The notes beneath the pieces are model-generated. The model was not told where the DNA came from. It did no database searches and saw only the letters and a program-made list of their open reading frames with translations. Positions 702 through 30,800 of a DNA stretch of 32,694 nt are shown piece by piece. Position 1 is the stretch's first letter. Every line of letters begins with the position of its first letter. This DNA comes from Streptomonospora mangrovi (GTDB lineage: Bacteria; Actinomycetota; Actinomycetes; Streptosporangiales; Streptosporangiaceae): positions 1-32,694 of the forward strand of contig NZ_JAJAQC010000068.1 of assembly GCF_027604915.1 (NCBI RefSeq). The letters run 5' to 3'. A program made the translations under genes and the position numbers.

Positions 702-762
702 TGCGGGCTCCTCGCTTCGCGGTGTGCTTGCCTGGGTCGGATGCGATAAGTCGGATAGGCGG
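702..762 (-). promoter_or_regulatory. eccB-esx intergenic gap with direct repeat
   Basis: This 61-bp gap is the largest within the eccD-eccB-esx-esx run. It contains a direct repeat GTCGGAT at 736-742 and 750-756 and the Shine-Dalgarno of the first WXG100 gene. It could hold a separate esx promoter, which would let the abundant substrates be made in excess of the membrane components. I cannot identify convincing -35/-10 boxes. Confidence 0.2.
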
Positions 763-3619: not shown

Positions 3620-3960
3620 ACGGCCTACCCAGGTGCGGCTTTCGGGAAGCGAAAGGAGGAGGGTGACAAGCGTGCGGGCTGGTCGGCGCCCCGTGACGGT
3701 CGCGTGGCCCTATGTTGTGTCTGCGTTGGGCTTACTTGATATCACATGGCAACGCTAGTGTTTAGTGGCATCCGTGTGGACGCCGGCACCCTGAACCCGT
3801 GCCGCCCGCGCCGCGCGGCCACTCTTCGCGCGCGGTGCCCCGCGGCGTCGCCGGATGTTCCCGTTCGGCTCACCCGGCCGACCGGTGGCGCACCTCCCGC
3901 GCCGCCACCGTGGACGGGCCGTGTACTGGGAGTGGAGGACACCGTTTCCGTGAGGACTTC
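3620..3960. promoter_or_regulatory. Divergent eccD / eccC intergenic region
   Basis: A 341-bp gap between the divergent eccD and eccC starts. Positions about 3705-3775 are clearly richer in A/T than anything nearby and include the palindrome TGATATCA (3737-3744) and two TAGTG direct repeats (3756-3760, 3763-3767). A rightward pair TTGTGT (3715-3720) with TGATAT (3737-3742), spacing 16, is one promoter candidate, but consensus matches are poor. The rest (3780-3950) is GC-rich and probably the untranslated leader of eccC. The SD of eccC is GAGG at 3952-3955. Both arms of the secretion locus are presumably switched from here. Confidence 0.45.
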
Positions 3961-8059: not shown

Positions 8060-9376
8060 TCAGCCGCGCTCGCCCTCGGTGCCCGGGGTGGCGGGCTGCC
8101 CCGTCGCCGGGCGCCAGCCCCGCGCGCGGCCCCGCCGCAGCACCACCGCGCCCAGCACGCACACCAGGATCAGCAGCGCCGACCCGCCGGCCACCGCGAC
8201 GGTCACCGGCACGTTCCAGGTGCCCCGGCTGGGCGGGTCGGGCGTGAACCGGCCGCCGCCGGCGGGGGCCGCCGCCTCGGCGCCCTCGGGGCTGCCGGTC
8301 AGCGCGGCCATGGGGTCGACCGGGCCGCGCCCCACCACCTCGGGCTCGGCGCCGGGCATGGCGCCGTAGGCCGAGGCGATGACGCGCTCCCGCACCTGCT
8401 CGGCCGACAGGTCGGGGTGGCGGGCGCGCACCAGCGCCGCCGTCCCGGCGGCGAACGCCGCCGCCACCCCGTCGCCGCCGCTGACGAAGTGCCCGCCGCC
8501 GGGGCCGACACCCATCACCTGCGTGCCGGGCGCCATCACGTCGGTGCGCGCCGCCTCGTCGCCTTCGAGCACCGCCGGGGGAGAGGCCGCCGCCGGCGCC
8601 CCCTCGGGGTCGTAGGAGCCCACGCTGAGCACGGCGGGGTCCTGCGCCGGGTAGGCGGCCAGCGGCTGGGACTCCGGGGTCACGCTCGCCGGCGCCACCA
8701 CCAGCACGTCGGCCTCGACCGCCGCGGCCACCGCGTCGTCCAACCGGCCGCTGTTCTCCCACGCGGCCGCGCCCACCAGCACCACGTCGGCGCCGTCGGC
8801 GACCGCGTCGTTCAGCGACGACGCGATCTCGGCGGGGGTGGCCACGCCCGAGCGGGGGTCACCGGTGGCCACGCCCACGATCCGCGCCTCGGGCGCCACG
8901 CCGACGAATCCGCTGCCCTGCTCCGGGCGGGCTGCCACCACCCCGGCCAGGAACGTGCCGTAGCCCCGGCAGTCCGCGCCCGCGCCGCCGCGCACCGCGT
9001 CGGCGAGCGGGCCGTCGGCGGCCACACCGCCGGCCAGCACGGCGACCGTCGTCCCCGCGCCCTTGGTCAGCCGGTGCACGGCGTCCAGGCCGAGCGACAC
9101 GTGGGTCCAGGGCGTCTCCTCCACCGTGGTGGAGGCGGCCGCGACACAGGCGTCGTCGCCGGAGGCGCCCAGCATGAACGGCGTGATCGGCGGCAGCGCG
9201 GCCGGCTGCGACGGCGACGCCGAGGGGGAGGGCGAGGGCGACGCCGAGGGCTCCGCGGAGGGCGAGGCGCCCGCCGGGGCGGGCGGCAGCACGAGCGCGA
9301 GCGCGACGGCGGCGCCCGCCGCCCGGGTGAGCGCCCGGAGCCTGGGGCGCGCGAACCCGGTCTTCCTGGGGGTCAT
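8060..9376 (-). CDS. Mycosin-like (MycP) subtilase lacking catalytic residues
   Basis: A 438-residue protein with mycosin layout: signal peptide with hydrophobic core at about 17-32 and an AGA-type cleavage site, a Ser/Pro linker, a subtilase-like domain at about 90-355, and a C-terminal membrane helix (about 390-412) with a basic tail. Every catalytic position is altered. The Asp block reads VAVLAGGV (Ala115 for Asp). The His block reads DCRGYGTFLAGV (Tyr139 for His). The Ser block reads SGGDGVAAAF (Gly303 for Ser). The AAGN oxyanion block reads APAS (Ser231 for Asn). Secretion and fold features are kept and there is no frameshift, so it is a pseudoprotease rather than a decayed gene. Mycobacterial MycP stabilises the ESX complex independently of its protease activity, which would suit this role. 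ATG at 9376 is preferred over an in-frame GTG at 9388, which has no SD. Confidence 0.85.
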   Translation of the reverse strand: MTPRKTGFARPRLRALTRAAGAAVALALVLPPAPAGASPSAEPSASPSPSPSASPSQPAALPPITPFMLGASGDDACVAAASTTVEETPWTHVSLGLDAVHRLTKGAGTTVAVLAGGVAADGPLADAVRGGAGADCRGYGTFLAGVVAARPEQGSGFVGVAPEARIVGVATGDPRSGVATPAEIASSLNDAVADGADVVLVGAAAWENSGRLDDAVAAAVEADVLVVAPASVTPESQPLAAYPAQDPAVLSVGSYDPEGAPAAASPPAVLEGDEAARTDVMAPGTQVMGVGPGGGHFVSGGDGVAAAFAAGTAALVRARHPDLSAEQVRERVIASAYGAMPGAEPEVVGRGPVDPMAALTGSPEGAEAAAPAGGGRFTPDPPSRGTWNVPVTVAVAGGSALLILVCVLGAVVLRRGRARGWRPATGQPATPGTEGERG

Positions 9377-9441
9377 GGTGTCTTCCACGGGGAGCGGAGG
9401 GGCGGAGGGCAGGGGGTGTCGCCGGCGGCGGCCGGGACCAC

Positions 9442-9505: not shown

Positions 9506-9877
9506 TCACGGCGGAGCGGTGTAGTCCCGCTCCTCGGCGAGGGCGCCGTCGGGGCCCCAGCGCCGGAAGGAGAGTTCGTCACCGGACGCGCTGAAGACCC
9601 GCTCCTGGGCGAGGCGGCCGTCGGGGTACCACGTGCGCCAGGCGCCCACGGCGCCGACACCCTCCTCGACACGGCCCTCGACCCGCGGCCGGCCGTCGGG
9701 GTACCACTCGCGCCACGGCCCGTGCTCGCGCCCGTCGCGGAAGGTGATCAGGCCGACGACCGCGCCCTCGGGATCCAGTTCGACCACCTCGCCGGTGTAG
9801 GGGGTCCCCTGGAACAGGACCGTGCCGTCCGGTTGCGGCTCGATCTGGGCGTCGGTGATCCGGTCGGGTGGTGTCAT
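9506..9877 (-). CDS. MORN-like YwqK-family immunity protein
   Basis: A 123-residue acidic, soluble protein with no signal peptide or membrane helix. It is built of degenerate MORN-type repeats: GPWREWYPDGR (about 53-63), GAWRTWYPDGRLAQERVF (about 78-95) and SFRRWGPDGALAEERDY (about 103-119), with a looser one before them (about 24-50). This pattern is that of the YwqK family, which in Bacillus subtilis is encoded next to the YwqJ deaminase toxin as its antitoxin. Here its ATG overlaps the stop codon of the giant deaminase-ended toxin (ATGA), so translation is coupled. Inferred role: cytoplasmic protein that binds and blocks the C-terminal deaminase. A longer in-frame start at 10093 exists but would lie inside the toxin gene and is Arg-rich junk. 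Confidence 0.85.
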   Translation of the reverse strand: MTPPDRITDAQIEPQPDGTVLFQGTPYTGEVVELDPEGAVVGLITFRDGREHGPWREWYPDGRPRVEGRVEEGVGAVGAWRTWYPDGRLAQERVFSASGDELSFRRWGPDGALAEERDYTAPP

Positions 9878-12800
9878 GCCTGGTCGATGTCTCCGGAGAG
9901 GATGCCGTCCTCGAACGACGGATGGCCGTGCGGGTAGTAGTAGCGCAAGTTGTTGGTGCGTGCGCCCTGGACGATGCGGGAGCAGTTGGCGCAGCACGGG
10001 GCGATCCGCGCCCCGTCCTCGAAGAGGGTGAACATGGCGTCGATCTGGAACTCGTTCAGGTCGATGCCGTTGACGTCGTAGCCGCGCGACCACAGCAGCG
10101 CGTTGAGGGCCTTGATCTCGGCGTGGCGGAGTGGGTGCGCGAAGTGCGGGAACGGCATGTGCCGGCGGCGGCTGGTCCGCGGGTACCCCGGGTCGGGGTA
10201 GCGCCCGCGCATCTGCTCGATGCGTTCGGCGATGAGCGGATGGACGTGCTCCGGGCGGATGAGGTCGCCGGGGTTTCCGTTGACCGCCTCGGCGACGACA
10301 CCGCTGCGGCGGTCGAACACGACGGCGTTGACGGCGCCGTGGCGGCCGCCCAGTCCGTTGATCCTTCTGTCGCGGCGGTTCCGGGGGGTCCTCTGGATGA
10401 AGTCGCGCATGCCCTCGGCGCGCGCCTCGATGAGTCCGCGGACGTAGTGGGCCACCGGAACGCCGTCGACGTGAGTGATCAGTCCGTCCTCCCGGGTGAG
10501 GCGGTCCTCGGCGACGGTCTCGATGACGTGGGGCTGGCTGTAGTCGGGAGGAACCGCCCGCGGGGGCTCGGGGGCGGCCTGCTGCTGGGAGGCCTCCTGC
10601 GGGGCGGGCGCCTCCGCCGGTCCGGCGGTGGCGGGCTGCGGGTCGTAGGAGTACGAGGTGGTGGCGGGGTACTGGGAGTACTGGACGTCGGCGGGGTACT
10701 GCGAGTACTGGACGTCGGCCGGCGCCTGCGAGTACTGGGTCTCGGCGGGGTACGCGGGGTATTGCGCCTGGCCGTAGCCGGAGTAGTCGCCTTCGTCGTA
10801 GTCGGACGGCCCCGCCTCGGACGGCCCCGCCTCGGACGGGCCCGCCTCAGACGGTCCGGCCTCGGTCTCGGGCGGGTAGGCGTCGGCGCGCTCCCGGTAG
10901 GAGCGGGGACCGCGGCGGTCGGGGCTGTCGGAGCGCCGCCGCTGCGGGCGGGGCCGCGAGTCCTCCGCGCGCATGACGAAGACCTGCTCGCTCGTGGGGG
11001 AGGACGGCACCACGTCCTCGATCCCGTGGCGGTACAGGAGGTCGGCGACGACCTCCTCCACGGTCCGGGGCGCGTCCTTGCCCTTCTTGGGGTCGATGAG
11101 CGCGCTGAAGTCCGGCGTCCTCGGCGGATTGCCTCCCCAGGGGTCGTTGGGGTCGGCGTCCTCGGCCGCCGGCTGGGCCGGGGGCTCCTCGTAGTCGTAG
11201 AGGTCGGGGATGCCGTCGTCGGTGGTGTCGCCGTCGCCGGAGCGCTCGGCGGCGCCGGTGGTGTCGGGGGTGCCGCCGGCGGTGGCGGGACGCGTGTTTG
11301 CGCCCTGAGGGGCGGCGGGGGAGCCGCCGCGCCGGCCGGGCGAGCCGGAGCCGCCGGCGCGGTCGCCCCGGTCGCCCGTGCCGCCGCCGCGAGGCGAGGG
11401 AGGCGACGACGATCCGCTCGGGCCGCCCGCCGCCGGGGCGGGGGCGTCGTCATCGTCGGAATCGGTGTCGGAGTCGGACGCGTCGTCGGAGTCCTCGGAG
11501 TCGTCGGCTTCGGAGGAGTCGTCCTGGTCGCCGTCCTCGTCCTCGTCGCTGGAGGAGGCGCTGTCCTCGCCGCCGTCCTCGGCGGACGACTCGTCGGACT
11601 CCTGGCCGCCGCGCCCGTCCTCGGCGCCGTCGCTCTCACCGTCGGTGTCGTCCTGCCGGGCGGGCGCCGGCGCGGGCGGGTGGGAGGCGGCGGCCCGCGC
11701 GTCCGGGCTCTGCCGTGACGGAGCCGGGGCGGGCGTCCCGTCCTGCTCGGAGTCGCTCGCGGCGTCGCTGTCGGACTCGCTGTCGCTGGCGCCGTCGGCC
11801 GCGCCGTCCTGCCGCGTGCCGCCGCCCGGCTGCGGGGCCTGCTGCGGCTGCGGGCCCGCCGGGGACTGTCGAGGACCGGCCGGAGCGGACACGGGCCCCT
11901 GCTCGGCATCGGACTCCGAGTCCGACTCAGAGCCGGACTCCTCCTCGGAGTCGGAGAGGTCATCGGTGTCCGTGTCCTGTCCGCGCCCGTCCCGGGTACC
12001 GGGCTGCGCGGCTGCGGGCGGCTGACCTGCGGGCTGCTGGGGGGCGGGCTGCCGGGTGCCCGGCCCGCCGGTCTCCTCGGAGTCGGACTCCGCCTCCGAC
12101 GCGGATTCCTCCTCGGAGTCGGAGAGGTCTTCGGTGTCCGAGTCGTATCCGCGCCCGTCCTCGGTGTCGGGCCGCGCGGCTGCGGGCTGCTGGGGGGCGG
12201 GCTGCTGGATGTTGGGCCGCTCGCCTATGGGCTCCTCGGCGCCGGACTGCTCGGTGGCCACGGGCGCCGGCGCGGGAATCTCGGTCTGAGTGTCGACGGG
12301 ACCGCTGTCCTGCCCACGGTGGCGGTCGGTCTCCACGCCCCGGGGGGCGGGGGTCCAGTCCTCGGACGGCTGCCAGCCGGCGGGCACGGCCTCCAGCTCC
12401 ACCCACCAGCTCGGGATGCCCGGCGTGACGTCGGGGACCCGGTGCACGGCGTGCACGACGAACGTCGTGCCGCGCGGGACCAGCACCTCGAACTCGTCGT
12501 GGGAGTCCCGGGGCAGGGTGTTGCGCACGTTCAGCACCGGATGCCCCTGCGGGACGCGGATGCTGTACTGGACGCGCAGGTGCGGGCGGACCGGCTTGGC
12601 CGCCAAAGCCGTGGAGGTGTACCTGGGGTCGGTGTAGGTGGTCCCCACCAGGTTGCGCATGGCGGCGTCGTCGTAGGGCGAGACACCGGGGGGCGCCGAG
12701 TCCGAGCCGCGGAACAGGATCAGCGGCTCGGGGGCGCTGCCGCGCCCGATCGCCCGGTCGATGTGCTCCACGGCCTCGCGCATGGACGGGGTGGCGTTGG

Positions 12801-15800
12801 CGAGGTCGGGGTCGCGCTCCAGTTCGCGGTTGATCACCGCCGAGCCGTGCGCGGCGTAGTAGCGCACGTAGGCCCGCTCGCGGTCGGGCAGGTCCGGGGT
12901 GGCCATCGGCCCGTCGAGGTAGGCCGACGCCTCCTCGTTGGTGGCGAAGGTGCGGTAGGGCACCTCGGCCGGCCGGTCGCCGACGGGGGAGTCGCCGGCC
13001 GTCTCCACGGTGGTGCCGTCCACCGCGCCCGTGTCCTGGGCGGGCGGCTTGGGCGCCGACTCCTCGCCGCCGCGGCCGGCGCCTTCGTCCTCGGACCCGC
13101 TCTCCTCGGCCGGCTCCTGGGCGGGGGCCTCCTGCTGGAGGGGCGAGGGCGCCTGCGCCGGGTGGGCGGCCGGGTTGAGCGCGCTGTTGAACAGCGCGAC
13201 GATGTCCTGGCCGGGCCGCTCCTGCGGTGTCTCGGCGGCCCGGACCGGGTCCTCGGTGGCCGCGCCGCGCTCGGGGCTGCGGCCGCGCGGCGGGGTCGCT
13301 CCGTAGAGGTCGTCCTCGGACTCCGGGTCCGCGCTCTGCCGGGCGGTCCGGGGATCCGGGGCGGGGCGGGGGTCCGGGCGCGGGGCGTCCTCGTCGGAGG
13401 AGTCGGCGGTGATGGGCCCCTTGGGCGCGGGGAGCACGTCACCGCCGGACTCCGTCCCGTCCTGCGGCTGCTGCTGCGTCTCCGGCTGCGGCTGCGGCTG
13501 TGTCTGGGGCGCGGGCGGCTGGGGCGAGTGCCGCGCGCCGTCGCCCTCGGCCTCGTCGTCCGTGCCGCTGTCGGACGTGACGCCGTAGAGGTCGTCGTCC
13601 TCGGCGGTGTCCGCCTGCCGGTCGCCGGGCGGCGGCGGGGCCTGGCGGTGCCCCGACGCCGGGCCGCCGGCCCCGTCCGGGGCGGTGCCGCTGTCGCGCC
13701 CGCCGGCGCCGTCCTCCGCGTCGGTGTCGCCGCTCTCGGTGGACGGGGCGGAGGACGCGTTGAGCTGCTCCAGCGCCGCGCGGGCGTCGATCACCGCCGA
13801 CTGCCACTCGTGCAGCCGCTGGTTGTAGGTCCGCAGCCGCTCGTTGAAGGCGCTCCGCTTGGCGGCGACGGTGTCGGCGGTGTCGGCGCTCGTGCCCGCG
13901 CCGTCGGGGCCGCCGGCCGTGGCCACGGCGAGGGACAGGTCGTGCGCGGCCTCCAGCAGGGCCTCGTCGGCGGCGGCGAAGTCCTCCTGGACGGCCGACA
14001 GGTCGCTGCGCCGGCCCGCGAAGGCGTCGATGTCGGCCTGGCTGATGATCCCCATGGCCAGCGCGTCGGACTGCGGCACCCACGCGGCCAGCCGGGTGGT
14101 GGTGTCGCCGATGAACGTGCCCTGCCCGGAGTCGGCGGCGGCCGCCCAGTGGCTGTCGAACTCCACCAGGTAGAACGGCTCTTGGCGGAGGCGGCTGGTG
14201 TGCGAGGGCGCCGACGTCGCCAGCGTCGCCGAGGCGGGGCCGCCGCTGTGGGTGCTCTGGGCCGCCTCCACGGAGGTGTACTGCGTGCCCGTGTGCACAG
14301 GGTCGAAGGTGGCGTTGGTGGTGTGGGCGTTGGCCGGGCCGCCGCCGTGGGCGGCGCCCGAGCTGCGGTTGTCGGTGTCCGTCCGCGCCGTGCTGTCGGT
14401 GTGGAACGCGTCGAGCGTCCCGACCGGCGCCACGTCCAGGATCATGCCCGTGCTGGGCACCGGGCTGGCTTTGAGCCCCCACGAGGTCGGCCCGAAGTCG
14501 AGCAGCGGGACCCCGCCCTCGCTGTCGGCGCTGAGGTAGAGCCCGATCAGCGCGTCGGACTTCAGGTGCTGGTCGATCGCCTCGTAGCGGGAGTCCAGGC
14601 CGAGCTTGGCGCCGTTGTGGTCGCGCGCGGCGGCGACGCCGGCGGGCGTGTACTCCCCGTCGCCGTCGACGTGGACGCCCGGGCGCGGTGTCCAGCCCAG
14701 CGAGCGGGCGACGACGACGTGCGCCAGGTCGCGGACCGCCTGCCCCTTGTTCTCGATCGCCGCGGGCAGGGCCAGCGCGTCGGGCGTGCGCTCGTCGGCG
14801 TCCTCGCCCTCCCAGCCGCTCAGGGCGGTCATGGGGTCCTCCTCGGAGGAGGTGACGTGGCCCGGGGGCACCGGCACCAGCGCGCCGGCGGTCCCGTCGG
14901 TGAAGACCAGGTAGGGCGAGGGGAACAGCGACTGGACGGTGCCGCCCGGGGCGGTCACCTGGACGCCGTTGGTGCGCACGGTCTCGGGGACCTGGAGCCC
15001 CACGGTCGCGCCGGTCGACTCGATCCGGAGGTCCAGGTGCACCACGGTGTCGTGCGACACCTTGGCGTAGGGCGTGGGGATGGCGAGCAGGACCGTCTGC
15101 GTCTCGGTGGAGGAGAGGTCCTGGTCGCGGCTGGACCCGCTGTTGACGGAGTGGGCGTGCGAGGGGCTGAAGGAGGAGGGCATGACACCCGAGGGGGTGT
15201 CGGCCGCCGTGTGGCCGTCCCCCCGGTAGGGCAGCGGCGTCATGAAGGAGAAGCCGCTGAACCCGGCGGTGGTGCTCGCCCCCTTGCCCTTGGACCGGGA
15301 GTGGGTCAGCGACCAGGTGTACTTCTCGCGGTACTCCGCCTCACCGCCGATGTAGGTGGTCTGCCCGGTGTCGGCCCAGGTGCGGCTGATGTTGACGGTG
15401 GCGTCCAGGGCGGGCGTGTCGGCGACGACCATGTTGTGGTTGACGCGGCGGACCTTGACCGGCACCGGCACCTGGGAGTTGGGGTTCTTGCCCAGGTGGG
15501 AGCGGAGCGCGTTGTCGAGGTCGTCGCGGCTGTCGGCGGTCAGCTCCAGCCCGTGGCCGGCCAGCCGCGTCGCAAGCGCGTCCAGCGCGGCGGTGGCGTC
15601 GGGCGCCCGGAAGGGGGTTCCGGCGTCCTCGAACCCGGGGCGCACCGCCAGGGCGTCGGCGAAGTCGCCGTCGGTCCCGCCGGAGGGCTCCCCGCCGGAG
15701 CCCCCGGTGAGGGCGGGCTGGTCCGCTGGAACGACCCGGGCGGGTCCGGCCGGCCCCGCCAGCCCGACCGCCAGCTCCGGCAGCAGCCCGCTGGCCAGGG

Positions 15801-18800
15801 CGTCCCAGGCGTGCAGGAACCCCGAGACCAGGTTGTCGGTGTCGGAGTACCACCCGGTGTAGACGGGGGTGCGGGGCCGGGTGGGGCCGATGCTCCAGTC
15901 CGGGCGGATCTCCATCGCCTGCTGCACGCGGCCCGAGGCGTTGAACAGGTAGGAGAACATCGGCTTGATGAGGTAGGACCGCTTCACCGAGAAGCCGCCC
16001 GCCGCGCCGTCGGACCGGATGCTGAGGTCCCACCTCCTGTCGAGGGTGGGCCCGGAGAAGAAGGTGGGGTTGAAGGTGGAGTCCACCGGGGTCTGGTTCG
16101 CCCGGTCCGGGGGGACCGTCGGCGCGGTCGACAGCGAGGGCGCCGCCGAGGCGCCGGTGGCGAACCGCCACGTCCGCGAGACGCCGGTGCTGAGGCTGAG
16201 CGGGGCCTCGCCCTCCAGGATCACCATCGCCTTCACCGGGACGAACGTCACCCCGGTGAGGTCGGCGGTGGTCTGCATGGCGACGCGGATGTGGTGGGGC
16301 GAGCGCAGGCCGCCGCTCATGTCCAGGTTGGTGCGGATCCCCGACAGCAGGTTGGCGGCGAGGTTCTGCTTGGACAGGGAGTCGGGGTAGAACCGCCGGC
16401 CGCCCTCGCTCTCCTCGGTGTGGTGGTCGAGCTTGCGGCTGAAGCCGTCGCGCAGCCCGCCCAGGCGGGGGCCGACCCCCTCCTTGGAGAACATCCGCGC
16501 GGTGGCGTCGATGAGGTGGACGTTGTCGGAGCCCAGCCGGTAGTTGACGTTGACGTCCACCACGACCGCGCCGGCGCCCACCAGCCGGTCGGTGATGGAG
16601 GGCGGCGCGGTGGTGCGCGACCCCTCCGCCCGCGTGTCGGACCCGCCGGTGCTCTGGAGCGCCGGGTCCGGGGCGCCCTGCGGCCGCGTGGTCGTGCCGC
16701 CCTGGGTGCGCACGGGCAGGTCGATCGCGGTGGGATCGGTCGCCGGGTCGGTGGCGCCGGCCTGCCGCCCGCTCGGGCCGCCGGGCGGCGGGGCGGTGAT
16801 CGCGGGGCGGCTCGGGACGGCCGGCGCGCGCCCGGTGATGGCGCGCCGGGCGTCGGCGGGGTCCATGTCGCGGATGCGCCCGGAGTCGCCGGTGACGCGC
16901 GGTGCGTCCAGGCGGATGCCGTCGGGCAGCCGGGGTGTGGACGTCTCCAGCAGGGCGGGGACGGCCGTGCGCAACTGGTGGCCGCGCGACCGCACCGGGA
17001 CCGGCCGTCGGCTCTGGCCGATGTCGTCCTTCTCGTAGAAGTGCGCGGTGAAGACCGCCGGCGCCTCCCACAGGTCGGACTTGCCGTCGAACAGCAGGGT
17101 CGCGGTGAAGGTGAAGTCCGTGCCCTGGCCCTGGCTGCGGTCCCGGCGCCAGTTGAGGGAGGCGCGCACCTGGCCGAACACGCCGCCGGGCGTGCGGCCG
17201 CCGCGCGCGTCCAGGCCGCCCGCGCGCAGGTTGCTGAAGATGCGGGCGCCGCCGGTCCACGACCAGGTCGCCCCCTTGTTGGACCCGCGGCTGGAGCTGG
17301 CCGCGACCTCGATGCCGGTGCTGCGGTCGGTGGTGCCCGCGTGCCGGAACGCCCCCAGGTCGGCGAAGAGGCGGACCGCCACGGTGTCCGGCTTGTTCAG
17401 GGCGGTGTCGGTCAGCACCACGAGCAGGCCGTCGTGCGGCAGTTCGACGTGTCCGGCCTTCAGCGTGGCCTCGGAGATCTCCTGGGCGACCTTCAGGGTG
17501 TTGCCCAGAGCCACCTGGAAGTTGCGGCGCAGCGGGGGCCGCTCGCGCGGGGACAGCGCCAGGAACGGCCGGCCGAGGTGGCTGGGCCGGTGGGTGTAGT
17601 CCGACTTCGTGCGGTCGGGCGAGGTGATCACCATGCCGGGCCGGTGCTCGGCGATCTCGTTGAGCAGGTTCTGGGTGACCCAGTCCGCCACCGTGCGGCC
17701 GAACTGCTCCAGCTCCTCGGGGGTGGGCGGCGCGGTGCCGTCGGTCGGGGCCGCCGGGAAGTACATGTGGCCGTCGGGCCAGGTGAAGGCCACCGGCATG
17801 GACCAGCTCAGGTTGGTCGGGTTGGGCGCCGCCAGGTTGGCGAACGGCGGCGTGCGGGTGGGGTCCGGCGTGTTCTGGGCGCCGCGCGAGGACTCGCCCG
17901 CCATCTGCGTCGGCCCGCCCGGCGGCGGCACCTCGGCGGACTTGATCATCCGGGCGTCCTCGCTGGTGAGGATCTCGGTGACGGTCCCGGTGAACAGGTG
18001 GGAGTCGCTGTCGCCGTAGAAGCGCACGTGGAAGTTGCGCCGCACGTCGTAGGCGGCCAGGTCCGGGGTGCCCCACAGCATCGGCGTGACCGAGCCGGTG
18101 CTGCCCTTGCTGCCGCCCTTGGAGAGCGCCCGGCCGCCGGTCACGTCGCCGTAGAGCGGCGCGACGCGGGTGGCGATCTCCGAGGTGGTCAGGGGCGGGG
18201 TGATGTCCAGGCCCGAACCGAAGTGGACGCTGAGCGAGGAGGTCTGCGACTTCCCCGTGCCGGTGTTCTTGGCGGTCCCGGCCATCAGCGTGAAGTCGTT
18301 GAGCTTGGGCACCACGGGCAGCAGGTTGTAGGTGGTCGGGGACGACCGGAACTCCACGACCTGCGGCACGTCCTTGGCGTCGCGGAACGTCAACTGGAAG
18401 GGGCCGGTGGTCATCTGCATGACCGTGTGCTCGATGTTCTCGTCGGAGAACGCGTCGCGGATCGTCGCGCGGTACTCCTCCCGCCGCTGGTTGAGGCGGT
18501 CGCGCAGCTCCTGGATGCTGTTGGTCACCCGACGCGGATAGTCGTCGGCCATCAGGTGGTCGAAGATGAAGTCGGCGATGGCGTGCTGGTCGGCCGTGCC
18601 GGGGGCGGCGGGCGGCTCGCCGGGGCGCGGCACCCGGGTGATGGGGCCGGCCTTGACGGGGTGGCTCTGGGTGATCCGCCGCGCGCCCGGCCCGGGGAAG
18701 GGACCGCTGCCGCGCCGGCCGCCGGCGTCGCGCAGGTGGGGGTCGGGCAGCGTGATCCGCTTGGGCGCGTCGGCCGGGCTGGTGCGCACGCCGCCGGGCA

Positions 18801-21800
18801 CGTCGAGGTTCACCGTGAAGTGGCTGGTGTCCACGACCGGGGGGCGCCCCGGCGGGATGATCTCCATGGTCAGGGGGAGGTCGGCGGAGTAGGTGTCGGG
18901 CTCGCCGCGGAGTTCGACGCTGCGGGTCACACCCGCCGACTGGCTGACGTTGTGGCTGGTCGCGCGGGCGTGGTAGGCGCCGGTCACGCGGAACGTGCCG
19001 CGCCAGCCGAAGTTGCCGGTGAGCCCGTCGGGGGCGATGAAGAACGGCGTGATCAGGATGGCCAGGGAGGCGGACTTGTGGCCGCCGTGCGAGCCGGAGG
19101 ACGACTGGGAGGCGGCCGCTCCGACCGACGTGGTCACCCGGGGGCGCGGCGCGCGGTCGGTGCGCGGCGCGGCGGGGGTGCCCTGCTCCGCGCCCGGCCG
19201 GTCCGCCGGGTGCGGGCGCCGCGACAGGGGCGCGGGCGGCTTGGGCTGGAGCCGGTAGGTGGCGCTGGGGTTGACCCGGAACTTGACCTCCCACGTGCCG
19301 CCGGGGCCCTCGACCTTCGTGCTGAAGCCGTTCGGCTTGAAGAACGGCCGGGGGTCCTTGCGCGCCTGCGCCCCCACGGCGTTGACGATGCCGGTGCGCG
19401 TGGAGCTGTTGCCGAACCTCAGCGCCTCCATGCGCTGGGTGATGTGGCCGGGCAGGTCGCCGACCTGGATGAGGTTGGGCCGGAACAGGTTGGAGGTCAG
19501 CAGGAAGCCCAAATCGACGTTGTCGACGGGAGGCTCCTCGGCCGTGGCGGTCGTACCCTCCGGGTCGCCGTCGCCGCCGGTCTCCTGGGGGCGCTCGGGC
19601 TGCTTGCCGCGGTCTTCGCGGTGGCCGGTGTCCTCGTCGCTGGAGTCGCTGGAGGACTCGTCGGAGTGGTCGGAGTCCTCGGGGGCGGGCTGCTGCTCCG
19701 GCTGCTGCGGGGACTGGTCCCCGGGCTGCTGCTCGGGTCGGCGCTCGGGTTGCTCGCCGGTGTCGGCGTCGGTGTCGGTTTCCTCGGCGGCCGATTCTTG
19801 CGGGCCGGCCTCCTCGGCGGAGGACTCCCCGGACTCCGGCGTCGGGTGGCGGACGACCGTGGCGGTGCTTTCGGCGCTTTCCGGGCTTGCCGTGCTTTCC
19901 GCGCTTTCGGCGGGCCCGGGGGCCGGCCGCTCCTCGGGCGCGGTCTCCGTGGCCGTGGACACGGTGGCCTGCCGCGGCGCCGCGTCGGTGTAGTCGAACG
20001 CGGCGGGCGCGGACTCCACGGAGTGGGTGGACCGCGCGTCGTCGGGCCGCCGCGTGGTGGCGCCCGGGGGCGGGGTCATCGAGCGGTCACCCGGACGGGG
20101 GCGGGTGGACGGCGCGCCGGTCAGGGCGTCGAGCGCGTCCAGGCCGTCGAGCCAGCGCGACAGCGAGCCGCCCGGGGGCGGCGGCGCCGGCACGGGCGCG
20201 TCCTCGTCGTCGGAGCCGTCCTCCTGGTCGGACTCGCTCTCCGCGTCGGTCTCCTCGGAGTCGGACTCGTAGCCGGCGTCCTCGGCCTCCTGGTCGGCGG
20301 GCGCGGGCCGCTCCTGCGGCCGGGTGTCCGGCGCGGTGTCCCGGTCGGTGCCCTGCTCAGCGGCGGGGCCGGGGACCGGCTGCCGCGTCTGCGGCGCCTC
20401 GCCCTCGCCGTCGGACTCCGACCCCGACTCCGACTCCGAGTCCGATGAGGACTCCGCGGACTCCGACGACTCCGGTCCGGAGCCCGGCTCCGACCCGCTG
20501 GGGTCCTGCCCGGCCTGCTGGGTCGGCGTGGCGCCCTGCTGCCCGAGTTCGGCGCGGAAGAGGTCGGTCAGCGTGTCGCCCATGTCCGACGGCAGGGACG
20601 ACGCCGCCTCTGAGGCCGCGTCCGAGGCGGCGTCGCCGCTCGCGCGCTGCCCGGTGTCCTGTCGGCCGCCGCCCGGGCCGCGCGCGTCCTGCCGCCCGTC
20701 CCGCCCGTCGCCCTGCCGTCCGCCGTCCTGGCCGGGCGCGTCCTGACGGCCGCCGTCCTGCGGGGCGGTGTTCTGGGCACCGGTGCCCTGCGGCGCGCCC
20801 GCCGGGGTGCTTCCGTTCAAGCCCGGGGGCGGGGCGATCGGCGGGACGTGCGTCATGGCGACCGTCACGGTGCGGTCGCCCATGGTCGGCAGCGAGATGT
20901 CCTTCATCGCCTCGGGGTGCCGCGTGAAGGACGCGATCAGTTCAGCCACCGTCTGCGGCGGCGGGTCCGCCAGGAGCGGGGGCTTGACGAGGAAGGACAG
21001 GTCGGGGGCCTTGGGCGCGACCGGCTCCCACGGGAGCGTCGCGAAGCCGGACCGCTCGGCGCCGGGCTCCCCGGCCGCCGGCCCGTCGCCGTAGAGGCTG
21101 TCGTCGTACAGGCTGTCGTAGAGGCTGTCGACGTCGCTCTGGTCGGCCTGCTCGTTCTGCTCGGCCTGACCGCTCCGGTCGGCCCGGTTGGGCGATGTGG
21201 CGGGGCCGGTGTCGGCGTCGTTGGCGGACGCCGATCCGGTGCCCCTGCCGCCGTCCGGCGCGGCGGCGGGGGTCCGGCCGGCCGCCTCGGCCGGGGGCGC
21301 GGCCGCGGCGGTGTCGGTCGGCGCCGTCTCGCTCTGGGTCCGCAGCGGCGGGGGAGCCGCGTCGAAGTCCTGGGCGCCGCGGCCCGTCCCGCCGTCGAAG
21401 TACTCGGGTTCGTCGGCGAACCGGACGCGCTTGCCGCGCCCGCCGCCGCCCCCGTTGCCCTGGGTGTCGCCGTCCCGGCTGCTTCCGGCGTTGTCGCCGC
21501 CGTTGGAGCCGTCACGGCCGTCGAACCGGTCGGACCCGCTGCCGCCCCGGCCGTCCCGGTCGAAGTCGCCACCGGGATTCCGGGAGGAGCCGCCCGCGCC
21601 GTCGTCGGGTCCGCCGGAGGAGGTGTCGACCGTGCCGCCGTTGAGGAGCGACGTCGCCGCGCGCTCGGCCGCCAGCCAGTCGGCGGCCGCCTGGGTGTAC
21701 TCCCGGCCGCGCCGGTCCGCCAGCTTCTCCAGCCGCTGGTACTCGCGGAACTCGGGGCTCTCGGCGGGCTTCCCCTTGGCGTCCTGCGTCGCCCACCACA

Positions 21801-24800
21801 GGTCGCGGCGCGCCGCCAGGTAGTCCTTCTCCGCGTTGGCCAGGGCCTGCTGCCGCACGGCGATCGTGTCGACGGCCCGCGCCGTGGCGGTGTCGGGCGG
21901 GCCGCCGAGGATGCCCAGCCGCACCGCGGTGTCCTGGGAGACCCACGCGGTGACCTTGGTGGTGGCCTCGCCGATGTGGGGGTGGGGGGTGCCGCCGATC
22001 ATCTCGCCCAGGGTGGAGGGCAGGGCGGACCGGCGCTGCGCCGCGATCGCCCAGGCGGTGTCGAACTCCACCAGGTACAGCGGGCCGCTGTAAATCTTGA
22101 GCAGCTCCTCGGGCGGCTTGGGCGCGGTGGAGATGTCGTGCGCGCCGCCGGAGTGCGAGATGCGGGTGGCGTCGCCCGAGGAGTACTGGGTGCCCGAGTG
22201 GTGGTCGTTGAAGCCGCCCGTGGTGGCGTCGCCCAGCGCCGCGCCGCCCGTGGCGATCACACCGCCGCCGTGGTCGATCGTCGTGCCGCCGGACCGGCTC
22301 GGGGCGTGGGAGTCGGTGACGGAGCCGGTCGGCGCCACGTACAGCACCCGGCTGGAGCCGTAGTCGGGGCGGATGGCCATGCCCCACGACGTCTTGCCCT
22401 GGTCGTCGAAGCTGATGCCGCCGCTGGTGTTGGCGCTGATGAAGTGGGAGGGCAGCGCCGTCCGGCTCAGTTCCTGGCCGACCGCGTCCGAGCGCGGGTG
22501 GAGGTTCAGCCGGCTCTTGGCGTGGTCGCGCGCCTCGGTGATCTCCGCGTCGGTGTAGTGGCCGTCCGCGCCGTCCTGGGCCGCGTCGGTGTCGGGCTTC
22601 CAGCCGTTGGCCGAGGCGAGCACGGTGTACCCCAGGTCGAGCACGGCCTTGCCGTCGTTCTCGATCGCCACGGGGAGCAGGATGTCGGCCGAGGAGGGCG
22701 GCGCCTGCTGCTGCGCCGCTTCGTCGGTCCCGTCCTGCTGCGGGGGCGTCTTCCACCGCTGGAGCGCGTTCTCGGTGCTGTCGGCGCCGTCGTCCTGGGT
22801 GGTGCGGCCCGGGTTGGTTCCGGCCGAGGCGGTGCCGTCGCCGGCGGTGCCGGTGGTGTCGCCGCCGAACTGGAGGTAGGGCGCGGGGTAGACGGTCTGC
22901 ACCCGCCCGGCCGAGCCGCTGGCGGTGATCCCGTCGGTGCGCACGTCCCTGGGCAGTTCCAGCTTGGGGCTGAGGCCGTCGCCCACGACCTCCAGCGTCA
23001 GCGTCAGGTCGTTCTCGGCGCCGAGCTTGGCGAAGGGGGCGGGCACGGCGACGACCACCGTGCGCGTGTCGGCCTCGGTGTTGGCGGCGGTGTCACTGTG
23101 GGAGGACGCGACGGTGGTGTCGTGGGGCGGGCTGATCGAGGACAGCGCCGCGGGCGAGCCGGTCTGCGAGCGGTGGTTGTCGTGGTCGGGGTTGGTGTCG
23201 GTGGTGTTGGGCACCATCGTGCCGAACCCGCCGACGCCCTTGGTGCTCATCGTCCCGTGGGTGTGGGCCGTGGTGGTGGAGAAGGTGAAGGACCGCGTCT
23301 CGCGGAACTCCGACTCGCCGCCGAGGTAGCCGACCTCGGGCGGGGCCGAGCTTCGGTTCGCCCGCACGTGGATGACGGCCGGGACCGACGGCAGCTCCAT
23401 CGGCGTCTTGGGGAAGCTGGTGCGGTTGACGATGTGGCGGATGTCGACCGGGATCGGCACCCCGGAGTTGGGGTTGTCGGACAGGTGGGAGGCCAGGGCC
23501 TGGGCGAGCCGGGCGCGGCTGTTCCCGGTCAGCTCCAGGTCGTGGGCCGCGAGCTTGGTCTCAAGGTCGGTCAGCGCCGCCTCGGCGTCGGCGGGCCGGA
23601 ACGTGATCCCGGTGTCGGCGAGTCCGGGCCGCACGTCCACGGACTCGGGCGGCGGCGGGACGTCGCGGGTGTCCAGAGGGCTGTTGCCGTCGGGGCCGGT
23701 GAACCGGTCCGGCACCAGGCGGCTCGACAGGGCGTCCCAGGCGTGCGCGAACCCGGCGAACAGGTCGTCGAACCGCGTCTGCCACCCGGTGTAGAGGGGC
23801 GAGCGGTAGAACGTGCCGGCCAGGTCGAGTTCGCGTGCGAACTGCGCTGCCTGGCGGATCAGCCCCGACCCCTGGATCAGGTAGGCGGAGTCCGTCTTGT
23901 GGACGAACGTGCTCTTGACGGTGTAGCCGCGGGCCGTGGTGTCGCCGCGGGAGCTGAAGGTCCAGGTCTTGGCGGCGCTGGGGCCGGTGAAGAGGGTGGG
24001 GTTCCGGGCGTCGCCCCGGGTGGAGTCGGGATCGTTGTCGGCGCGGTTGGTGTTGAGCGACGGCAGGTGGCTGCCGCCCACCGTGGCCAGCCAGGACCGC
24101 ACCCGGCCCCGGCTCAGCCCGCTCCGGGCGGCGCCGTTGATGAGCAGCGTGGCCTCGGCCGGGACGGCGGTGGCCGACTCCACCACCGCGTCGGTGACGA
24201 TCGTGGGGCGGATGGTGTTGTGCGACAGCGCCCCGCCGTCCATCTCCGGTCGGCTGACGATCCCGTTGAACAGGTTGGCCGCCAGGTTCTCCTCGGACAG
24301 CAGGTTCTCGAAGAACTGGCGCCCGGCGTCGTCCTCGCCGGTGAAGTGGTCGTACTTGCGCATGTAGAAGTCGCGCCGGCCGAAGTACCGGGAGCCGCCG
24401 AACTCCGAGGAGAACATGCGCCGGTTGAGGTCGAGCAGGGACGGCTGCGGGGTGGTCGCCGCGGAGTCGTCCGAGCCGGGAGCCTGGGCCGGGGTCTGCC
24501 CGCCGGTGTTGACGGAGAGCAGGAAGATTCCGGCGTCGTCCAGCCGGCTGTTGAGCGAGGGCGGGTTGGCGCGGCTCGTGGTGGACGAGGGGTCCGGGGC
24601 GGACGTGGTGTCCGTGGTGGACGAGGTGCCGGTGGTGGACGAGGGGTCCGGGGCGGACGAGGTGCCGGTGGTGGAGGAGGAGGCCGTGGTGGACGAGGGG
24701 TCCGGGGCGGACGAGGTCGCCGTGGCGGAGCCGTCGACCGCCGCGTTCTCCGGGATCGGCGGCAGCGCGGGGCTGTGCCGGCGGCCGCGGCCGTTGACGA

Positions 24801-27800
24801 TGTCGCGCGCCTGGTCGGGGGTGAGCCGCTCGTAGGAGCCGGAGGGCCGCCCGGTCGTGCCGGTCCCGGATGCCGGGTTCGGTGCCGTGGTGCCGTCGGC
24901 CGTGATCGGGGTGATGTTGTCGGGCACGGGGCGCTTCAGCCGGGGCGTGGCGATCTCCATGCGGGCCTGGATGCCGCCGCCCAGCCGGTCGCCGCGCTGG
25001 CGCAGCAGGTTGGGGCCGTGGTAGCGCTTGGCGTCGTCGATCCGCGCGTTGAACGTGATGTCGCTGGACCACACGTCGGTCGTGCCGGTGAACAGCAGGA
25101 ACGCGTCGCTGCCGTAGGAGGTGCTCAGCCCCTTGCCGGTGGAGGAGCGCCGGCCGATGGCGCCCCGCAGGTGCTGGAGGAACCCGCCGGGGGTGCGGCC
25201 GCCGGCGGCGTCGACGTCGCCCCGGGACACCGATCCGACGAAGCGGTAGGCCAGCGAGTTGGAGTGGCCGGAGCCCTTGCGCGACCCGCGCTGCGCGGAG
25301 CCGGAGATGCCGGAGCCGACGAACCGCTCGGTGGTGCCGGTGTGCTGGAGCGGGCCGACGTCGGCGAAGAGCCGGACCGTGACCAGTTCGGGTCGCTTGA
25401 ACTTCTTCCCGGAGCGGAACAGGTCGCGGATGTCGAAGCTGGCCGACTCCTGGAGGTGGACGGGGAGGCCGTCGTGGGTGAGCTTGCTCAGGCCGCCCTT
25501 GAGGTGGGCCTGCTCGACCGCGCTGTAGACCCGGTTGCTGTTCTCCAGCGCGGTGGCGTAGTCGCGCCGGAAGGGGCGGCTCTCCCGCCCCCAGCGGGAG
25601 GTCCGGCCGCCGGGGCGGTGGGCGAAGTTGTCCTTGGTGCGGGAGCGGTCCGGAACGACCAGGCCGGGGTAGCGCTGGGCGATCGCCTGGAGCAGTTGCT
25701 GGCTGACCCACTCGGTGAACGGGGTGCCCTTGGCCGGAGAGGGGGACGCGTCCGTCGAGGACTGGGCGGTGGTGCCGGCGGCCGCGTCGTCGGTGCCGGT
25801 CGTCTCGGTGACGGTGGTGTTGGTGTTGGTGTTGGTGTTGGTGTTGGGGTTGGCGTCGGTGGCGGTGGTGTTCGTGTCGGCGCCGGGGGCGGTCGTGGTG
25901 TCGGCGCCGGTAGTGGTGCCGGCGGTGCCGGTGCCGGTGGTCTCGGTGGCGGCCGGTGCGCCGCTGAAGAACGGGTTGCCGTCGGGGAAGGTGATCGACT
26001 GCGGCGCGGCGAAGTGGAACCGCGTGGGGTGGTCGCCCCGCAGGTGCGGGAAGGGCGGCTCCGTCGGCGTCTCGGTGTCGGTGCTGGTGTCGGTGTCGGT
26101 GTCGGTGTCGGGGTTGGTGTCGGTGGTGGTGGAGCCGGTGTTGGGATCGGAGTCCGACGCGTCGGTCTCGGTGTGGGGAGCGGTGCTGTCGGCCGTCTGG
26201 AGCAGCCGGGCGTCGTCGGCCGTGAGGAGTTCGTAGGTGGTGCCGGTGAACCGCGTGGGCTCGCTGTCGCCGGTGAACTGGGCGTAGTAGGTCCGGGTCA
26301 CCTCGTAGAGCACGGAGTCCGGCGAGCCCCACAGCATCGAGACCTGGGAGGCGCTGTCGGCGTTGCTGTCGCTGGTCCGGCGCGCGTTGTGGCGGAAGAG
26401 GTACTCGATGACGGCCGGGGCGAAGCGGAAGATGCGGTTGGGCAGCCGGAAGTCGGCGCCGCCGCCCAGCGTCAGCGTCCAGAACGACGTCTTCGCCTTG
26501 GACTCCGAGGTCGCGCTGTCCCGGCTGATGATGGTGCTGAACTCGTCCACCTTGGGCGGCGTGGGCAGTTGCCGGTAGGACGTCGGCGACGAGGTGATGC
26601 GCAGCGTCGTCGGCTTGCCCTTGGCGTCGACGAAGTCCTGGTCGTAGTACCCGGTCGACATCGTGTTCAGGTTGCCCTGGATGAGGCTGCCGCTGCGCAG
26701 CCCGTCGAGGGCCGCGGTGTTGTGCCGGGTGAAGTTCTTGGACGGCTTCGCCGGCTGCGGGGGCTTGGGGCGCCGCGTGAATCTGCCGGTCCTCGCGGGC
26801 GGCGTGGACCGGGCGGGGGCGGGGTTGGCGCGGGCCTGGATGTCGGCCGAGGACAGGCCCAGCAGGCGGTCGCGGACCCAGTCGGCGAGGCCGACGCCCG
26901 CGCCGCGGGCGGGCCGCCCGCCCTGGGCGCTCTCGCCGGCCCGGTCGGTCCGCCCGGTCTGGTCGGGCTGGTCGTCCTGTTCCGTCTGGCCGGACTGGTC
27001 GGTCTGCCCGGTCTGCCCGGACTGGTCGGTCTGCGAGGTCGGGTCGGTCGGCGGCGCCGAGGTGACCTCGCCGACGTACACGGGGTAGGCGCGGTCGATC
27101 GCGCGGATGCCGGGTCCGGGGACCTCCGTGGTTGCGGGGTCGCGCGGGTCGGCGAGGTTGATCTGCTCCGGTGCGCCCTCAGGGGTCGTGCCCGGCCCGC
27201 CGGGGACCAGCAGTTGGACCGGGGTCTCCCACGTCCGGGTGATCGGCCCGGTGTCGGCCTGCGTCGAGGTGTCGGCCGGGGACGGCGTGTCCGCCTGGGT
27301 CGACGTGTCCGACTGCGTCGACGGCCCGGCCTGGTCGCCGGTGGTGTCGCCGGTCTGGGTGGTCGTCCGACCGCCGCTGGTGCCGCCGGTCGTGTCCCCG
27401 GTGGTGCCGCCGGCCTGGTTGCCGGGCGGCGGCGCGATGGCCGTGGCCTGCGGCGGCGCCTTGGGGGTGAGCTTGAGGTCGACGGTCAGGTTGGCCTCGT
27501 AGGGCTCCGGCGGACCTTTCAGTTCGACGGAGGACACCTCGGTGCTGGCCCCGCTGGAGGTGAAGCCGGTGGCGCGGCTCCGGTAGCCGATCCCGAACCG
27601 GCCGACGGCGCGCACGCCCAGCGTCATCAGGTCCTCGGGCATCCCGGTGCCGACCGGGCCGATGTAGAACGGCGTGAGCAGGATGCCGATCCCGAACGAC
27701 TTGGACCCGCCGTGCCCGCCTTCGTAGCTGTAGGCGGTGCTCGGGTTGCCCTCGGTCTGGGAGCGCAGCACCTTGGGGCGGCGGGTGGGCGGCGGCAGCG

Positions 27801-30800
27801 TCTGCGACATCGAGGTGACGCGGTGGTACTCGGCGTCGGGGTCGACGTGCAGGTCCAGCGTCCACTCCCCGTCCGGCCCCCGCACGGTGGCGGTGAACCC
27901 CTGCGGGGTGAAGAACGGCCGCAGGTCGCGCGACGCCTGCCGGCGGACCTGGTCCATGATGTCGGTGCGCATCTGGGGGGTGACGCGCGGGTCGGTGATG
28001 CCGGTGAGCTGGTTCTGGACCTGGTCCAGCAGGCCGGTGCTGTCCACGGGGTGCGTGCCGTACCAGTTGGACAGGAGCAGCGGGCCGAGCCGGGCCGTGT
28101 CGGGGAACGCGTCCCTAGCGAGTTCGTCGGCCGTCCGCGCCGCGTCCTCCGCCTCCCGCTGGGCGCGCCGGGCGGCGTCCTCGGCTCGCTGCGCGTCGAA
28201 CTCGGCCGACGTGGCGAAGTAGTCGGCGTCCGCGGCCTCGCGCGCGAGGTCCCTCGCGGTCTTCCCCGCCGTGTTGGCGGCCTCCTCGGCCTTCTGCGCC
28301 GCCTCATCGGCCTGGTCCGCCCGCTCCTTGGCGGTGTTCGCCTGCTTCCGGTCGTCCGCGGCGGTCCGCTCGGCCGTCTCGGCTCGGGTGTTCGCCTCGT
28401 CGGCGCTGTTCCGGGCGGTGTTCGCGGTGTCCCGGGCCTGCCTGGCCTGCTCCTCGGCGGTGTCGGCCCGCCCGGACAGCTCCTGGGCGTGGTCGAAGGC
28501 GGTGTCGAGTTCGCCTTGGACGCGGGCGATGTCGTCGGGGCCGATGCCCGACCGCGCCCACTCCTCGGCGGCCTGCCGGTCGGCCTCGGCGGCGTCGCCG
28601 TCATGCCGGCCCGCCTGGTCGCGCAGCCCGGACACCTGGGCGGTGAGATCGGCGATGTCGCGTTCGAGGTCGGCGATGCGGGGGTCGGCCTCGGGGGTGT
28701 CGACGTCGCGGGTGTCGGTGGCCTGCGCTTCGGGAGCCCGCGGAGCCTCGGGGGAGTCGGCGGTGTCCTGGGCGGGGGCCGTCTCGGTCGCGGGCGGGGC
28801 ACCCTGGGTCTCCGGCGGCGCCGACGACTCCGGGGACTCCGGCGCCGCCGGGGGCTCCTGGGGCGCCGGCCGCAGGTCGGAGAGCTGCTGCTGGAGCCGC
28901 CGCACGTCCTCACCGACCCGGTCGGCCTGGGACCGAAGGCCGGCCGCGTCCGCGCGGGCCTGCTGCGCTCGCGCCTCGTGCCGCTGGGCCGCCGCGGCGG
29001 CCTCCAGGGCGGCGCGCAGGGCGGCGGCGTGCCCGGTGGCCCGGGTGTGGGCGTCGTTGGCCTCGGTGCGCAGGTCGCCGGCATGGGTGCGGGCGGCGTC
29101 GGCCGCCTCCTCAAGGCGCGTGGCCTCGGTGTCGGCGTTGTTGGCGGCGGTGCGCAGCCGGCCGGCCTCGGCGGTGGTCTCCCGGGCGGTCTCGGCGGCC
29201 CGCCGGTACTCCTCGGCCCGCGTCCCGGCCGTCTCCCGGGCGGTCTCGGCGGTGGTGCGCGCGTTGTCGGCGGCCGTCGCCGCCCTGTCGGCCCTGTCGG
29301 CCAGGTCGTCGGCGTTCGCCCGCTGCTCGGTCGCCGCCTCGCGGGCGTCGGCGGCGGCGTCGCGGCTCTGCGTCGCGGCGGTGCGCAGTTCGTCGGCCTT
29401 GGCGCGGGCCTCGGTCGCCCGTGTGATGGGGCTGTCGTCCGCGTTGGTCTCCGGCTGCCGGCCGGAGTTCTCGACCGGCAGGATGACGTCGTCGGGGGCG
29501 GTGCCGGTCTGCTGCGGCGGCGGGGGCGGCGGCGGGGCGGAGCCGAAGGAGCCGGTGGTGCCGCCGCTGTCGCCGGCCGGGGCCTGCGGGTCGGGCTGGA
29601 CGGTCGTCTGGGTGGACTGCTGGGTGCTCTGGGTGCTCTGCTCGGAGCCGCCCTGCTCCCCGCCGGTGTCCCCGGTGTTCCCGGTCGTCTCCCCGCTGGT
29701 GGTCGTGGTCGTCGTGGAGGACGTCGCCGGGAACTCGCGCAGCTCGGTGGAGTCGGGCACGAACGTGGCCAGGACCAGTGGCGACTGGTTCAGCGCGTCG
29801 GGCAGCGGCGGGAAATGGGAGCGCAGCCCCAGCCCCTTGAGGAAGTCCTGGACGATGTCGCCCGACCTCGGCAGGCCGTCGCCGCCCTTGCCGCTGAGCG
29901 TGCCGAAGTCCGGCAGCGCGGGCGGCTTCTCGCCGAGCCCGCTGAAGGACGGCAGGGGCTTGCCGTCGAGGTCCAGCGCGCCGAAGGGCGGGGCGGGGGC
30001 GTCGCCTGTGGACGTGGCGGGGACCTGGCCGTAGTCGTCGTCGTAGAGGCCGCCGAAGTCGTCGGTGTCCTCGGCCGCGCGGTCCTGCGCGGGCGGCGGA
30101 GTCGGGGCCGGGGTCGGCGCCTGCTGGTCGGAGGCCGTGATGGGCGCGCCCTGGCGGTCGCGGCCGTAGTAGGAGCCGCCGGCGGGAGGGTAGCCGTCGT
30201 CGGGTTCGTTGAAGTTGCCCCACGCGCTGAAGATCGGGATCTCGGTGTTGAGGTTGATGGGCAGGGGTGTGGTCTGCCAGGTGTCGGCGCGGCCGAGGTC
30301 GGCGAGGAACTGGGCGATGGGGTCGGTTGAGGTGGTGAAGCCCTTGGGGCTGAGCCCGGAGAAGTCGGGGACCTTGGGGTGGAGCGGGGAGAGGTCGAGG
30401 CCCTCGGGCTTCCCCCCGAACGGGGCTTCGGTGGTGCGGGGGTCGGGGTTGGTGAAGGCGCTGTCGTCGTAGTCGTAGAGCGACAGGTCGAGGTCGTCGG
30501 CGGTGTTGTCGCTCTGGGGGGAGGGGGAGTCGGCGGCCGTGTCCCGCGCGGGCTGTTCGGCGGGGGTGGACTCGTCGCGCTCGGCCGCGGCCGGGTCCGG
30601 GTCCGGGGCGGTGGCCTCGCTCTGCGCGGGGGGTGTGTCGGCGGCGGTGTTCGGTGGCGGCGAGGGGGCGAACTCGTCGTCGTATTCGGCGGTGGCGGGG
30701 GCGGTGGTGGTCTCCTGGCCGTTGGTCGACTGGGTGTCGACCTGGGGGGAGTCGGTGAGGAGGTCGGCGGAGTCGCGGCCGGGGGTGTCGGTGCCGCCGG

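Follow-up and report, generated by a model that had tools for sequence, protein, structure and literature searches.

A recurring core of tandem modules in a giant, putatively type VII-secreted toxin of Streptomonospora mangrovi

The window analysed here is an entire contig of 32,694 bases from S. mangrovi. Its minus strand contains a giant open frame that runs to the contig end, the 5' end of the gene being off the contig (Table 1). Comparison with its closest relative, an 8,367-amino acid frame in genome G003, and with a 4,441-amino acid giant frame from a second contig of the window genome (G000:C81), revealed that the first 161 residues of the window giant are off the contig. The neighbouring genes encode components of a type VII secretion system (T7SS), a mycosin-type subtilase and two proteins of the WXG100 type, the longer of which probably starts near position 715. 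Behind its two repeated units the giant protein carries an ADP-ribosyltransferase (ART) domain and ends in a deaminase-like domain, which contains HAE and PCCANC motifs and is a probable YwqJ-like deaminase as judged from its sequence. The start of a small MORN-repeat-type gene overlaps the stop codon of the giant frame (ATGA).

Table 1. Position and basis of the features assigned in the window.
Feature	Position	Strand	Basis or remark
WXG100 protein	44..340	-	PF06013 E 3.1e-12, above cut-off
WXG100-like protein (C-terminal ~100 residues)	372..1016	-	PF06013 E 1.5e-4 and TIGR03930 E 7.6e-7, both under cut-off
EccB	763..2214	-	TIGR03919, PF05108 above cut-off
EccD	2219..3619	-	TIGR03920, PF19053 above cut-off
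EccC ATPase of T7SS	3799..7947	+	TIGR03924, TIGR03925 above cut-off
Mycosin-type subtilase	8060..9388	-	PF00082 E 4.7e-20; TIGR03921 E 1.4e-53, under its cut-off
MORN-repeat-type gene	9506..9877	-	123 aa; PF07661 E 2.9e-6, 27.3 bits, under cut-off 29.6
Giant open frame	9874..32694	-	at least 7,606 aa, 5' end off contig
C-terminal deaminase-like domain (PF14431, YwqJ-deaminase)	9967..10326	-	E 0.00039, 21.1 bits, under cut-off 25.9
ADP-ribosyltransferase domain (PF03496)	12439..12891	-	E 1.6e-16, 60.6 bits, cut-off 23.4
Unit B	13924..19515	-	residues 4394-6257, 1,864 aa
Unit B module 6	14116..14586	-	merged profile; weakest together with module 4
Unit B module 5	15001..15513	-	merged profile
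Unit B module 4	15871..16413	-	merged profile; weakest together with module 6
Unit B module 3	16948..17511	-	hhalign windows and merged profile
Unit B module 2	17947..18483	-	hhalign windows and merged profile
Unit B module 1	18841..19398	-	merged profile
Unit A	21784..28092	-	residues 1535-3637, 2,103 aa
Unit A module 6	21979..22491	-	merged profile; weakest together with module 4
Unit A module 5	22966..23502	-	merged profile
Unit A module 4	23803..24336	-	merged profile; weakest together with module 6
Unit A module 3	24958..25551	-	hhalign windows and merged profile
Unit A module 2	26203..26730	-	hhalign windows and merged profile
Unit A module 1	27451..27969	-	profile-profile module search

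The original prediction described two collinear copies of one unit making up over half of the visible protein, and this was borne out: units A and B comprise 3,967 of the 7,606 visible residues (52%), and blastp with low-complexity masking aligned them in four main pieces that follow each other in the same order (E = 1.8e-106, 7.2e-41, 2.0e-24, and 6.5e-16). The two halves are thus homologous, and a MAFFT alignment showed identity at 705 of 1,957 aligned positions (36%). All five motifs quoted in the prediction occur once per unit and in identical order, starting in units A and B, respectively, at residues 2968 and 5612 (YTGW), 3435 and 6070 (TSWG), 3501 and 6136 (GTQY), 3514 and 6149 (HSGG), and 3540 and 6175 (YLVEFD). 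From YTGW to YLVEFD the distance, start to start, is 572 residues in unit A and 563 in unit B (1,716 and 1,689 bp), and the predicted 1,722 and 1,695 bp agree with it when end-to-end edges are taken. The DNA is very GC-rich and has many short tandem repeats, which would favor low complexity or chance as the source of the similarity; this source was nevertheless ruled out, since the best E-value was obtained despite masking and none of 200 locally shuffled copies matched at more than 28.1 bits, as compared to 369 bits for the top real piece.

No Pfam or NCBIfam family reached its cut-off inside the units when the protein halves and, for Pfam, a further 18 and 16 half-units were scanned; the RHS family was absent from these Pfam scans, and haemagglutinin models gave no match in the Pfam and NCBIfam scans of protein and half-units. 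Inside the units only matches under the cut-off were obtained, namely to DUF5788 near residues 4705-4758 (E = 0.0096) and to Suppressor_APC, TrmO_C, and ETX_MTX2 (E = 0.092-0.094), each in one of 16 half-units, so that the two halves were not found to belong to different known families. The NCBIfam matches were located outside the units, far under the cut-off, and were of coiled-coil or low-complexity type. Directly ahead of unit A lies an Ala-rich coiled-coil stretch (residues 1326-1528, bases 28111-28719), whose SMC-like matches were weak and far under the cut-off. PHROGs, searched with first-half members only, gave no match at 0.01, and profiles of the two unit halves found none of the PDB sequences at an E-value of 1.

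The internal organization of the unit was analysed by hhalign comparison of 300-column windows of a 26-copy unit alignment against each other. Alignment positions 345-523 matched positions 669-856 (modules 2 and 3) with a score of 57, as compared to 38 for the best of 276 reversed comparisons, and 14 of the 276 forward comparisons exceeded this reversed maximum. The merged profile of modules 2 and 3 (49 rows) detected four further regions: positions 40-225 (score 40.1, probability 76%; reversed 27.2), 1035-1197 or module 4 (34.0, 46%; reversed 17.4), 1367-1491 (39.1, 73%; reversed 26.7), and 1644-1787 or module 6 (31.5, 31-35%; reversed 18.3). Shuffled controls for these regions scored at most 14.1 and the model positions of the four match, modules 4 and 6 being the weaker calls with hhalign probabilities of 31-46%. 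Each unit thus consists of about six modules of ~300 residues, arranged in tandem at a spacing of ~300-370 residues and strongly diverged from each other. The two-fold repetition described originally is therefore real, but each of the two units is itself repetitive, which is new with respect to the two-fold picture. Mean column identity was 15% across pooled modules vs. 24-42% for a single module between units. Conservation and hydrophobicity over the copies showed, in every module, strand-like amphipathic stretches flanking S/T/G-rich segments with Pro/Gly turns, and all 11 conserved S/T/G-rich runs detected by a fixed rule fell inside modules, which make up 57% of the unit; each module has two such runs except module 2, which has one. 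Short-period tandem repeats at 24577-24729 (54/18 bp) and 26923-27049 (18/27 bp) encode low-complexity inserts in or between the modules of unit A and are absent from unit B.

Relatives of the units were sought in genus, family, and class samples that overlap. Unit B matched 2 of 6 genomes of its own genus and, as a single-sequence query, 10 of 150 of its own GTDB family, while a second-half profile matched 14 of 296 genomes over the class, ten in the same family and four in another family under the genus label g85. Nocardiopsis trehalosi NBRC 14201 is among the matching genomes. With a g85-type query, matches were obtained in 17 of 101 g85 genomes, in frames of up to 12,263 amino acids, and in 15 of 72,556 plasmid records; g85 is probably Streptomyces, because all 15 plasmid matches are from this genus. 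The window's own units had no match among the same plasmid records. Presence of the unit was observed in distant g85-type frames (E = 3.2e-44, 1.2e-42, 3.3e-40, and 1.6e-14) and in the four Streptomyces plasmid giants examined of the 15 (E = 8e-57 to 2.2e-36). Single-copy homologues do exist: the 26 complete units found in 20 frames of 13 genomes are distributed as one unit in 15 frames, two in four, and three in one, these numbers per gene being lower bounds as contig ends truncate some of the frames. The longest frame (G046:C14:52893-103550; 16,885 residues, cut by the contig end) contains two complete units, two module-size remnants, and several ADP-ribosyltransferase domains, and an 8,448-amino acid frame on a Streptomyces cadmiisoli megaplasmid contains an apparent second, very diverged unit.

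The phylogenetic analysis of 30 units, made by quick search, revealed that unit B groups with single-unit paralogue(s) (SH-aLRT 97); the partner of unit A is a partial unit of N. trehalosi (SH-aLRT 100). The three units of one multi-unit frame (G049) cluster together, as do the two of another (G395), while the two of G046 are located in different clades, and multi-unit giants therefore probably arose more than once. The repeat had been attributed to an ancient duplication; this is partly right, as homology of A and B stands, but a plain internal duplication is not shown by the tree. A topology constrained to hold A and B together was 12.7 log-likelihood units worse and was not rejected (AU p = 0.053). 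On these sequence data, a local duplication of the unit inside the window gene is possible.

The genomic context of the relatives was in part similar to that of the window. EccC was found near giants or giant-type frames in 11 of 17 genomes within the sequence stretch examined, and was not seen in the stretches examined around the giants of G049, G058, G060, G186, G333, and G395, some of which are on short contigs. In three of four Streptomyces plasmid loci, the order eccC-eccD-eccB, a WXG100 gene, an AAWKG-family gene, and a YbaB/EbfC-family gene precedes the giant, and at the fourth the AAWKG-family and YbaB/EbfC-family genes are in view. On Streptomyces megaplasmids, giants are located behind T7SS clusters. 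The WXG100_2 domain (PF25547) was detected in all four relatives' N-termini scanned, three of them above the cut-off, while in the close relative of the window giant in G003 it was under it (21.1 vs. 27). ART domains are also located C-terminal of the units in other giants, and the tips are ART and/or deaminase domains in the same genus and family, with an additional weak match to PF00383 in one G003 relative. Streptomyces giants have EndoU or alpha/beta-hydrolase in their annotated names. A Pfam scan of the 2,747 residues that follow the unit in one Streptomyces giant gave nothing at 0.001. All four genes with a deaminase region from two genomes, the window genome and G003, have a MORN-type gene directly behind this region, its homologues behind this region in G000:C81 (one) and G003 (two) sharing 58-62% identity; its product is a candidate immunity protein. 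The unit is thus the constant part of these proteins, flanked by a WXG100-like export domain on one side and by toxic tips that vary on the other. The description of the unit as being of unknown function held insofar as no known family covers the halves, and is modified in that the unit does not stand alone but is the conserved core of giant T7SS-linked, toxin-tipped proteins.

A pooled profile of 48 modules (eight copies of six) was run on 177,635 PDB sequences. Its two best matches were C2 toxin component II (residues 281-347, E = 0.0089) and monalysin (residues 74-147, E = 0.14), followed by lipoprotein LpqH (E = 0.4 and 0.45) and actinoxanthin (E = 3.9), while the same profile made from reversed sequences gave one match (E = 7.5). 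The likeness of the modules to beta-pore-forming hairpins is regarded as suggestive only, because the six single-module profiles found no beta-pore-forming protein among the PDB sequences and Pfam ETX_MTX2 matched 1 of 48 modules under the cut-off (E = 0.0098), no better than the reversed control, whose best, unrelated match was at 0.0016. Matches of the module-4 profile to TPR-like and kinesin light-chain sequences (E = 1.1e-6 and 2.4e-5) were treated as an artefact of repeat summing, as no single stretch passed and the best had 23 residues; those of the module-2 profile to eIF1 and SOCS2 were discarded at E = 0.37 or worse.

Our main reading, to which we assign a probability of roughly 0.5, is that the giant is a T7SS-exported polymorphic toxin whose modules are beta-hairpin membrane-inserting elements forming a translocation device on one chain. 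By analogy with T7SS toxins already known, the giant is inferred to leave the producer through the T7SS and to act on a rival cell, with the MORN-type protein giving protection; that the units insert hairpins into the target membrane, or bridge it, so that the tips pass, is uncertain. According to this model, the T7SS would export the giant by means of its WXG-type N-terminal domain, and the modules would be hairpins like those of beta-pore-forming toxins, strung on one chain and not on separate subunits. One unit, contributing ~12 strands through its hairpins, or two units together would close up as a barrel or a sheet, either within the target membrane or on its surface. The toxic tips would then cross or be released, and the product of the overlapping MORN gene would shield the producer. 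The original suggestion of a delivery or scaffold role is retained as the best reading of the unit, with the ~300-residue module, and not the whole unit, as elementary repeat. A stricter version, which we advance only tentatively, holds that the unit is a single-chain beta-barrel of six hairpin modules and about twelve strands, so that a T7SS giant brings its own translocation pore; double-unit giants would then form two pores, or one of ~24 strands, delivering several tips. The similarity behind the pore step is weak: S/T/G-richness alone could draw matches to beta-pore-forming proteins, and the reversed control consisted of one profile.

The main rival readings are a stalk and a cage. As a stalk, the units might be a beta-rich spacer, long and stiff, keeping the tips away from the producer or placing them across its envelope without membrane insertion, a role played by RHS or filamentous-haemagglutinin repeats in other polymorphic toxins. 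Tandem modules, one to three units per frame, would suit a spacer of adjustable length, and low-complexity inserts are tolerated between modules; however, the unit is kept whole, with both halves in order in 26 copies, unlike spacers that gain or lose single repeats, and divergence is far greater among the modules of one unit than between corresponding modules of different units, which makes a mere spacer less likely than the main reading. It is unlikely that the units enclose and shield the tips during export in the manner of RHS or Tc-type cocoons: their size and place ahead of the tips are fitting and some giants have one unit per tip group, but no RHS family matched the units, and the window has two of them ahead of a single tip pair. 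It is highly improbable that the giant serves its producer structurally or at the cell surface, with tips acting at home, given the ART and deaminase-like tips, the T7SS neighbours, and the overlapping candidate immunity gene.

A putatively T7SS-exported toxin with candidate hairpin modules can be compared with several known systems. The sequence evidence points to the giant being a T7SS polymorphic toxin whose modular core is uncatalogued: with polymorphic toxins of WXG/LXG-type N-termini it shares the WXG100_2 domain of the relatives, the T7SS neighbours, the exchangeable tips, and the adjacent small gene, but the window giant is far larger, carries several tips and has a long modular core to which no family model corresponds. 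Known beta-pore-forming toxins have one insertion hairpin per subunit and oligomerise. The weak pooled-profile match and the S/T/G-rich hairpin-like segments resemble such toxins (pore components of binary toxins, the aerolysin/ETX_MTX2 type, and monalysin), whereas in the present case a single chain contains about six candidate hairpin modules and no family model reached its cut-off. RHS and filamentous-haemagglutinin cores are similar in being constant, repetitive, and placed ahead of exchangeable tips, but the window unit matched neither RHS nor haemagglutinin models. Giant actinobacterial proteins combining several toxin domains, including ADP-ribosyltransferases, are mentioned in the accessible text of Zhang et al. 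(2012; PMC3482391), and the window giant is like them in both respects; that text names toxin domains but no ~1,900-residue core, copy number, or modules. No description of the ~1,900-residue core was found in the accessible parts of PMC3482391 and PMC11573180 or in the literature searched, most subscription papers and supplements excepted.

If the main reading is true, the six hairpin modules of each unit constitute a defined candidate entry device for T7SS toxins, and a single-chain pore would explain how actinobacterial T7SS toxins enter without a contractile or contact-dependent injector. To our knowledge, the route of type VII secreted toxins from the outside to the inside of a rival cell is an open question. 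The unit would then also give a name to a family that covers thousands of residues with a hypothetical annotation at present (9 of the 15 Streptomyces plasmid matches). Even without a pore, unit and module represent a recurring architecture that is unlisted and occurs in some of the largest proteins of bacteria, in frames of up to 16,885 amino acids.

Assembly breaks were observed at the N-termini of giant genes: the window contig (C64) stops inside one at position 32694, while contig G000:C81 begins at one (position 2) and breaks off within the first 42 residues of another (18400-18525). In G003, two tandem giants have first 245 residues that are 97.6% identical, while their units are about one third identical; near-identical N-termini may therefore be the cause of these breaks, and recombination between them is also conceivable. 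In the same genome, a 3,435-amino acid giant frame (G003:C1:5495904-5506786) ends and its deaminase homology continues in another frame, with a MORN homologue downstream, which we describe here as a frame break or an assembly error.
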